Shown here: in pieces, positions 62,290 to 64,000 of the stretch
Numbering within the stretch: the first letter of the stretch is position 1
How the letters are laid out: the number at the start of each line of letters is the position of its first letter
The notes under the pieces: generated by a model
What the model was told of the DNA's origin: nothing
Database searches by the model: none
Seen by the model: the letters and a program-made list of their open reading frames with translations, nothing else
Made by a program: the position numbers and the translations under genes
Origin: Halorussus salinus
Lineage (GTDB): Archaea > Halobacteriota > Halobacteria > Halobacteriales > Haladaptataceae
DNA: 64,000 nucleotides
Direction of reading: 5' to 3'
Assembly (NCBI RefSeq): GCF_004765815.2
Contig: NZ_SBIS02000007.1
Location: forward strand, 620,001 to 684,000

Positions 62290-62319
62290 GGCGAGGAGTC
62301 GCCCCGGAACGTTTTTTAC
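62290..62319 (+). promoter_or_regulatory. lysC terminator hairpin overlapping the pheS-leader TATA box
   Basis: GGCGA-GGAG-TCGCC (62290-62303) is followed by TTTTTT at 62312-62317. The same T-run with AC forms a TATA-like TTTTTTAC (62312-62319) centred about 27 bases before the ATG at 62342. It can both end lysC and start pheS transcription. Confidence 0.6.
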
Positions 62320-62341: not shown

Positions 62342-62425
62342 ATGCCACTCGAATCCCGAGTCGGTGGGAGCGTTCGCGAGCCACGCCACCAGCCTGCGGG
62401 GTTCGGCTTCTTCTTCGCGTCCTGA
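62342..62425 (+). CDS. Phe-rich leader peptide upstream of pheS (27 aa)
   Basis: Short leaderless frame starting 27 bases after the TATA box: MPLESRVGGSVREPRHQPAG then FGFFFAS and TGA. Four of the last seven codons are Phe, all TTC. The encoded peptide lies directly upstream of phenylalanyl-tRNA synthetase, just as leader peptides do in bacterial pheST attenuation. No annotated counterpart is known to me. Haloarchaeal Phe codon use is TTC anyway, so the cluster, not the codon, is the signal. Confidence 0.6.
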   Translation: MPLESRVGGSVREPRHQPAGFGFFFAS

Positions 62426-62433
62426 CCGAGCGG

Positions 62434-62604
62434 CGGACTTCCCGACCGGACGACGAGTCCGGCGGGGACGAAACCGCTCGTGCGCGGTCCTCGGCCAGCG
62501 ACGCGACCGCGCTTCAGAAACGATAAGCGGGCGCACGGACACGTATCGACAACGAGCGACTTCGGACCGACGACGAACGACCCGAAACGACGAGCGAACC
62601 TACG
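62434..62604 (+). promoter_or_regulatory. Leader RNA of pheS with competing hairpins
   Basis: GTCCGG at 62457-62462 can pair with CCGGAC at 62446-62451 (5-base loop), while AGTCCG at 62456-62461 can also pair with CGGACT at 62434-62439, so the two are mutually exclusive. A further ACCGC/GCGGT stem lies near 62472-62487. No T-run follows, so classical termination is not indicated. The rest of 62488-62604 shows no other feature. Confidence 0.45.
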
Positions 62605-64000
62605 ATGAAACTCCCCGAATCACAGGTCGCGGTGTTACGAGCCGCGAGCGCGAACGACGCACAGACCATCGACCAACTGGCAGACGAGACCGGACGCAAG
62701 CCCGAGACGGTCACGGGCGCGGCCTTCGAATTGGAGGACGCGGGCCTCGTGAGGGTCGAGGAATCGACCGACGAGACCGTGACGCTCACCGACGAGGCGC
62801 GCGAGTACCTCGAAGACGGCCTCCCCGAGGTTCGTCTCTACGAGGCCGCGCTCGACGCCGAGGCCGACGACGACCCCGCCCAGATGGGCCGGGTCATCGG
62901 CCAGTCCGGGTTGGAGGGGCCACAGGTGGACATCGCCCTCTCGAACTACGCCCGGAAGGGGTACGGAACCATCGAGAGCGGCGAGATTACCGCCGACCCC
63001 GACGCCGACCCCGAGAGCGACGCCGAGGCCGACGCATTGGCCGCGCTCGATGCTGGCGACTTCGACGCGGGCGACTCGGCGGCGGACGACGGCGTGCTGG
63101 AGCAGTTAGAGCGTCGAGGACTCGTCGAAATCGCGGAGTCCACGGTGCGCTCGGTGACGCTGACCGACGAGGGCGTGACCGCGATGATGGAGGGCGTCGA
63201 GACGGCCGAGACGGTCGGCCAGTTGACGCCCGAGATGCTGACCTCCGGCGAGTGGCAGGAGGTCGAGTTCGCCGAGTACAACGTCGAGGCCGACGCCGAG
63301 GAGGTCACGGGCGGGAAGACCCACATCCTGCGCCAGACCGCCAACCGCGTGAAGGACACGCTGGTCGGGATGGGCTTCGAGGAGATGGAGGGTCCCCACG
63401 CCGACGCGGAGTTCTGGATCAACGACTGCCTGTTCATGCCCCAAGACCACCCCGCGCGGACCCACTGGGACCAGTTCGCGCTGGAGAACCCGCGCGAAAT
63501 CGGCGAGTTGCCCGAGGATTTGGTGGCGCGCGTAGAGGACGCCCACCGGAACGGGGTCGGCGAGGACGGCGACGGCTATCACTCGCCGTGGACCGAGGAG
63601 GTCGCGCGGGGAATCGACCTGCGCGGCCACACCACGTCGCTGTCGATGCGGTACCTCTCGGGCCACGAAGTCGGCGAGTTGGAACCGCCACAGCGGTTCT
63701 TCAGCGTCGAGAAGGTGTACCGCAACGACACGCTCGACCCGACCCACCTGCTGGAGTTCTACCAAATAGAGGGTTGGGTGATGGCCGAGGACCTGTCGGT
63801 ACGGGACCTGATGGGCACCTTCGAGGAGTTCTACGCGCAGTTCGGCATCACGGACATCGAGTTCAAGCCCCACTACAACCCCTACACGGAGCCGAGCTTC
63901 GAGCTGTTCGGGACCCACCCGACGACGGGCGAGATGGTCGAAATCGGGAACTCGGGCATGTTCCGCGAGGAGGTCCTCTCTCCGCTCGGCGTCGAGTGCG
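62605..64000 (+). CDS. pheS: Phenylalanyl-tRNA synthetase alpha subunit, 5' part
   Basis: Catalytic subunit of the heterotetrameric PheRS; the gene runs off the window after 465 codons. The N-terminal winged-helix DNA/tRNA-binding repeats (LPESQVAVLRAASANDAQTIDQLAD; VLEQLERRGLVEI) are typical of archaeal/eukaryal PheS. The class II core follows: THILRQTANRVKDTLVGMGFEEMEGPHADAEFWINDCLFMPQDHPARTHWDQF, SVEKVYRNDTLDPTHLLEFYQIEGWVM (motif 2) and FKPHYNPYTEPSFELFG. A start at 62605 is set by the first domain. pheT is expected just outside. The Phe-rich leader ORF precedes it. Confidence 0.96.
   Translation, partial: MKLPESQVAVLRAASANDAQTIDQLADETGRKPETVTGAAFELEDAGLVRVEESTDETVTLTDEAREYLEDGLPEVRLYEAALDAEADDDPAQMGRVIGQSGLEGPQVDIALSNYARKGYGTIESGEITADPDADPESDAEADALAALDAGDFDAGDSAADDGVLEQLERRGLVEIAESTVRSVTLTDEGVTAMMEGVETAETVGQLTPEMLTSGEWQEVEFAEYNVEADAEEVTGGKTHILRQTANRVKDTLVGMGFEEMEGPHADAEFWINDCLFMPQDHPARTHWDQFALENPREIGELPEDLVARVEDAHRNGVGEDGDGYHSPWTEEVARGIDLRGHTTSLSMRYLSGHEVGELEPPQRFFSVEKVYRNDTLDPTHLLEFYQIEGWVMAEDLSVRDLMGTFEEFYAQFGITDIEFKPHYNPYTEPSFELFGTHPTTGEMVEIGNSGMFREEVLSPLGVEC

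Follow-up and report, generated by a model that had tools for sequence, protein, structure and literature searches.

Among bacteria, ribosome-mediated attenuation is textbook knowledge, and the leader-peptide attenuators of enterobacteria, pheM (of pheST) and pheL (of pheA), carry a run of Phe codons near the end of a short ORF. The window analysed here, a stretch of 64,000 nucleotides from Halorussus salinus (contig NZ_SBIS02000007.1, positions 620,001-684,000), contains a short ORF of this appearance upstream of pheS, which raises the question whether an archaeon could sense the charging of tRNA-Phe through a ribosome translating a leader peptide. An initial annotation of the locus had proposed such a Phe leader peptide together with a switch between competing RNA stems. 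Comparison with other haloarchaea strongly favours the leader peptide, through the conservation of the ORF, the exchange of TTC and TTT codons, the spacing to the promoter and a parallel Trp leader, while the proposed stem switch was not retained. We regard it as probable (about 0.77) that the leader is a cis-acting element of pheS(T) which senses charged tRNA-Phe via the translating ribosome.

Leader ORF upstream of pheS

The leader-peptide ORF (MPLESRVGGSVREPRHQPAGFGFFFAS, 62342..62425, + strand, as are all features of the window given below) begins with the ATG at 62342, comprises 27 codons with a GFGFFFAS end and stops at the TGA at 62423-62425; it is conserved in Halobacteria and is probably leaderless. 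The Phe codon run, F-G-F-F-F, occupies 62402..62416, with Phe at codons 21, 23, 24 and 25. The leader promoter (62303..62318) is composed of the BRE-like CCCGGAACG and the TATA-like TTTTTTA (62312-62318), and the centre of this box lies 27 nt upstream of the leader ATG. The pheS gene, encoding the alpha subunit of phenylalanine--tRNA ligase, starts at 62605 and continues past the window end at 64000 (62605..64000); in relatives (L005, L018) a pheT-like ORF directly follows pheS. The 27-codon ORF with its FGFFFAS end, the TATA-like box and the position of pheS were all as initially annotated, and the Phe-rich ending goes beyond chance, the probability of at least four Phe in eight random codons at 64% GC being about 5e-6. 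In 2.3 Mb of the genome that carries the window, 784 short ORFs preceding genes were scanned, pheS being left out as its stop falls outside the window; the top-ranked list contained one ORF with four Phe in seven codons, which had no TATA-like box. No convincing case of a further amino-acid-run leader was found in these 2.3 Mb, though with just two Trp codons the Halorussus Trp leader escapes such a scan. The strongest amino-acid run of the scan was an AT-rich short ORF, MCDYISIIINIIIEKCK, at G000:C4:35615 (+), with a TATA-like box and 271 nt upstream of a gene; it is probably due to chance.

Within the Halorussus alignment, conserved islands stand out amid variable stretches: the promoter, the ORF including its Phe run and, 3' of the stop codon, a GC-rich block. 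The same anatomy was found at pheS of many genera. A comparison of the DNA upstream of pheS in haloarchaea, as suggested with the initial annotation, showed that the short ORF and its Phe codons are kept and that the Phe-rich ending recurs upstream of pheS class-wide. Among 96 distinct leaders, with peptides of 23-33 aa (mostly 26-28), 94 carry at least three Phe within the last eight codons, the count being two in two loci, three in 21, four in 72 and five in one. The gene downstream is pheS in 94 of the 96 loci read, and the pattern did not resolve the other two. The three codons after G-F-G are mostly TTC (186) or TTT (54), so that Phe is kept under synonymous exchange. The rare codon TTT accounts for 62 of 371 leader Phe codons versus 64 of 1502 in pheS (96 loci), and is approximately four times commoner in the leader. 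Both ends of the peptide are conserved, the N-terminal SEP/PES and the C-terminal GFGFFFA, and they largely coincide with the paired arms of the RNA element P1 described below and with the Phe run; the middle is variable.

Of 391 Halobacteria genomes, 310, from 76 of 86 genera, matched the covariance model R1 of the leader, and about a fifth of the genomes gave no match to it. When 120 genomes of the phylum were sampled, the 14 with a match all belonged to the window's own order, a result in which the model may be too specific. There is one credible leader copy per genome. Second R1 matches (approximately 23-29 bits) were rejected as extra copies, all ten that were read falling in long coding frames, and partial DNA matches in the own genome and in G016 looked coding or unrelated. 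A search for pheS on plasmids gave no haloarchaeal match among the matches listed. The leader is lost or degenerate at pheS of Halorhabdus salina (L058), Halarchaeum (L035, L044, L048) and Halalkalicoccus (L069). Halorhabdus amylolytica (L055) has retained the downstream hairpin P3 with the Phe run gone, and offers a natural comparison for P3 function. Two metagenome-assembled pheS loci (L012, L063) show the leader anatomy with a broken reading frame, possibly an assembly error.

Promoter spacing and transcript start

Of 96 loci, 86 have the motif AANNTTTT at 34 nt (+/-1) from the leader ATG; measured from the first A of the motif, 81 of them show exactly 34 nt and the other five 33 or 35 nt. 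This fixed spacing fits a leaderless transcript. A transcription start site (TSS) map of Haloferax volcanii by Babski et al. 2016 (PMC4983044) gives, in its Table 2, 16 uORFs in long 5'-UTRs, among them a 26-aa uORF of pI 5.9 upstream of pheS (HVO_2948) and a 23-aa uORF upstream of the tryptophan--tRNA ligase gene HVO_A0127, and the section concerned reports no additional TSS at H. volcanii pheS. These two uORFs are very probably the Phe and Trp leaders described in this study. The leaders of Haloferax relatives (e.g. L042), through whose sequences the comparison with the published table was made, have 26 aa, a pI of 5.94 and a mass of 2792 versus the 2772 listed for H. volcanii. That section and table of PMC4983044 make no mention of the Phe or Trp codons, of conservation across species or of RNA structure; its authors read the low pI as indicating that the uORFs are protein-coding.

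A putative second promoter, GAAACGATAA (GGAACCGYTAAC in relatives), lies closer to pheS at 62517..62526. The promoter-like motif GGAACCGYTAAC is often found 40 nt 5' of pheS, also in loci without the leader such as L058 and L069, and it may bypass the leader or give basal expression.

RNA structure of the leader

A MAFFT alignment (A1, 41 sequences) folded with RNAalifold gave two elements, P1 and P3. In the consensus, P1 pairs codons 3-6 with a segment ending right before the FFF codons; in the window its 5' arm, UCGAAUCCC, is at 62349..62357 and covaries with the 3' arm, GGGGUUCGG, at 62398..62406. P3 is a hairpin directly 3' of the stop codon (62427..62480), identified by the consensus and by covariation and also present in the minimum-energy fold of the window. 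It consists of an outer stem (62427-62433/62474-62480), a symmetric internal loop (62434-62438/62469-62473), an inner stem (62439-62444/62463-62468) and an apical stem (62446-62451/62457-62462). The internal loop has a highly conserved GGA/GAA core and reads CGGAC/CGAAA in the window.

Changes on both sides were seen in five of nine P1 pairs, with 98.9% of cells paired, and in nine of eleven P3 pairs, giving 14 of 20 pairs and 95.9% of cells paired for P1 and P3 together. The joint covariation score was 0.395, compared with 0.176 +/- 0.011 in shuffles (none of 500 reached it) and at most 0.14 in slid versions; related sequences can beat shuffles without any structure, and the slid controls retain the relatedness. 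The P1 changes couple different codons, for instance a Pro-to-Ser change at codon 5 and a GGG-to-GGA change in a Gly codon, a link that coding alone would not create. P1 was absent from the minimum-energy structure of the window, and the single-sequence fold signal is modest (z = -1.18); it is the covariation that argues for structure.

The stem competition initially proposed did not survive the comparison. The three segments concerned, CCGGAC at 62446, CGGACT at 62434 and GTCCG at 62457, are all present in the window, but CGGAC or an equivalent with an exact partner inside the hairpin occurs in only 5 of 94 loci. The alternative stems are not kept in relatives, and CCGGAC/GTCCGG is the apical helix of the conserved P3. 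P1 and P3 share no arm, no conserved mutually exclusive partner was found for either of them, and a helix of at least 6 bp spanning the stop codon was present in only 32 of 94 loci. The initial remark that no T-run is present was correct, the longest between P3 and pheS being 3 with all loci counted, and no terminator-like site (hairpin with U-run) was detected in the window region. Without a T-run, intrinsic termination of the pheM type is unlikely. Searches against Rfam with five loci gave no match at the gathering threshold and no credible family for the leader, and the T-box covariance model had no match in the window up to E = 5.

P3 lies at a slightly more constant distance from the last Phe codon (mean 17.0, sd 1.8 nt) than from the stop codon (mean 7.9, sd 2.1 nt). 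A longer tail behind the last Phe tends to go with a shorter stop-to-P3 distance (r = -0.64 among related loci, and hence no test of significance), and in L040 and L046, where the stop directly follows the Phe run, the Phe-to-P3 distance is kept. Pairing in P3 begins 10-24 nt after the first base of the final Phe codon and 1-13 nt after that of the stop codon. A ribosome extends approximately 10 nt past its A-site codon. A ribosome stalled on Phe would mostly spare P3, and a ribosome at the stop codon would usually overlap it.

Trp leaders upstream of trpS2

The second TrpRS gene, trpS2, was recognised by contiguous TIGR00233 matches, and a short ORF with Trp codons was found upstream of it in 28 of 30 haloarchaeal loci, for example MTTAPWRWWSPLSGADS..., MRSALSTWRWQSPGERTVS and MVSTSHANCWRWHVSREVDSIAV. 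The motifs WRW, WRWW and CWRW together with a start-proximal helix are seen among the loci L166-L195, L355 and L356, and the Trp leader of the own genome is L169 (G000:C4, upstream of 390584). On plasmids of Haloferax mediterranei and H. larsenii the Trp leader has 23 aa, the length of the HVO_A0127 uORF. P1 of the trpS2 leader (CCGCTCCC/GGGAGCGG) begins at nucleotide 8, as does P1 of the pheS leader, and shows both-side changes in three of eight pairs. A third arm for it (GCTCMCT) was considered and rejected, no covariation with the 3' arm being seen by inspection. On a plasmid of Natrinema zhouii (L357) the Trp leader looks decayed, with no ATG ORF containing at least two Trp and with the flanking conserved sequences remaining, a possible natural loss. 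For hisS, no upstream short ORF with at least three His was found in 29 genomes. Two of the three synthetase genes examined (pheS, trpS2 and hisS) are preceded by cognate codons, and only by cognate ones.

Discussion

Comparison established the leader ORF with its Phe codons, the elements P1 and P3, the spacing to the promoter and the link with pheS; we infer that ribosomes stall, which way pheS is regulated and what the output would be. The sensing half of this model is well supported by the comparison. The mRNA would begin at or beside the leader ATG, and a ribosome would translate the 26-28 codons and reach F-G-F-F-F just ahead of the stop. When charged tRNA-Phe is plentiful, the ribosome would pass and depart, P1 would close and lock the start-proximal RNA, and a ribosome-free leader would be exposed. 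When tRNA-Phe is uncharged, the ribosome would stall at the Phe codons with P3 staying folded just ahead of it; P1 could not form during the stall because its 3' arm would sit inside the ribosome, and more full-length pheST product would result. Archaeal termination by FttA/aCPSF1 has been described and its exclusion by ribosomes proposed (PMC11616081, PMC8116511), and for H. volcanii there is evidence that transcription and translation are coupled (PMC8576121). These points lead us to favour, at about one chance in two, an output in which the stalled ribosome would protect the nascent RNA from such factor-dependent termination, and the remaining share would fall to control of decay or translation. 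Against the sensor reading stand the lack of an intrinsic terminator and of a conserved exclusive partner for P1 or P3, the absence of P1 from the minimum-energy fold of the window, the missing match in about a fifth of the genomes and the promoter-like motif closer to pheS, through which the leader could be bypassed.

Other explanations account for parts of these observations. P3, with P1, might be an operator to which PheRS or some other protein binds, with autoregulation as in E. coli thrS, or a tRNA-binding element, and the short ORF would then be secondary. The highly conserved GGA/GAA internal loop is a plausible protein site, the linkage to pheS agrees with this explanation, and so does L055, which retains P3 though its Phe run is lost. 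However, an operator leaves unexplained the conserved Phe codons with their synonymous exchange, the in-frame ORF and the fixed start, as well as the Trp codons of the trpS2 leader, and we consider it unlikely. The conserved SEP/PES and GFGFFFA ends could instead belong to an independent, trans-acting micropeptide that merely adjoins pheS, and the low pI, read as a protein-coding sign in the part of PMC4983044 concerned, points the same way. Yet the single credible copy per genome lies upstream of pheS wherever it was read, the conserved ends largely match the P1 arms and the Phe run around a variable middle, and the peptides of L040 and L046 are truncated right after the Phe run, which together make a micropeptide quite improbable. 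Slightly less probable still is a generic repressive uORF whose translation lowers pheS constitutively without sensing Phe: although other H. volcanii uORFs in the long 5'-UTRs tabulated in PMC4983044 precede genes unrelated to amino acids, a generic uORF would not account for cognate codons in both the pheS and the trpS2 leaders, with nothing comparable at hisS.

If the leader is a sensor of tRNA-Phe charging, it resembles pheM and pheL in that a short ORF with a Phe run towards its end immediately precedes pheS or a Phe gene, and in that RNA structure would read the position of the ribosome. Unlike them, it is probably leaderless and has no U-run terminator; no antiterminator/terminator pair was found, P1 lies inside the ORF with P3 directly after it, and Rfam gave no match. 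Since the intrinsic terminator is a defining feature of the pheM/pheL family and was searched for and not found, we do not file the leader in that family. As in attenuation of the E. coli tnaC/Rho type, nascent RNA could be screened from a termination factor by a ribosome that has stalled, with no need for an intrinsic terminator, the FttA version being a proposal; tnaC responds to free Trp and not to uncharged tRNA, whereas the haloarchaeal leader is proposed to sense tRNA charging. Sensing of charging upstream of aminoacyl-tRNA synthetase genes is shared with the T-box leaders. In bacteria, T-boxes contact the tRNA themselves and work without a leader ORF; in contrast, the haloarchaeal leader has an ORF and gave no T-box match in the Rfam searches.

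The initial annotation held that archaea are not known for such attenuation, and we found no archaeal leader peptide with cognate codons in the open-access literature, a search with subscription papers outside it that leaves priority uncertain; a methods paper (PMC10219788) mentions archaea where it speaks of uORF attenuation in general. Cognate-codon leader peptides are of a known bacterial kind, and the present case differs in its archaeal host, a leader that is probably leaderless, another RNA anatomy and the lack of an intrinsic terminator. Tentatively, and at somewhat less than even odds, haloarchaea may have their own leader-peptide attenuation of aminoacyl-tRNA synthetases (Phe at pheS, Trp at trpS2), built from a leaderless cognate-codon ORF that the start-proximal P1 folds on itself and from conserved RNA downstream, lacking an intrinsic terminator and acting through RNA decay or a factor such as FttA/aCPSF1. 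If true, leader-ribosome sensing of tRNA charging would be present in a second domain of life, archaea would use transcription-translation coupling for gene control, and ribosome-mediated attenuation would operate in them by a mechanism unlike the bacterial one. The genetically tractable Haloferax would then offer two natural test cases, pheS and trpS2, for the output step.
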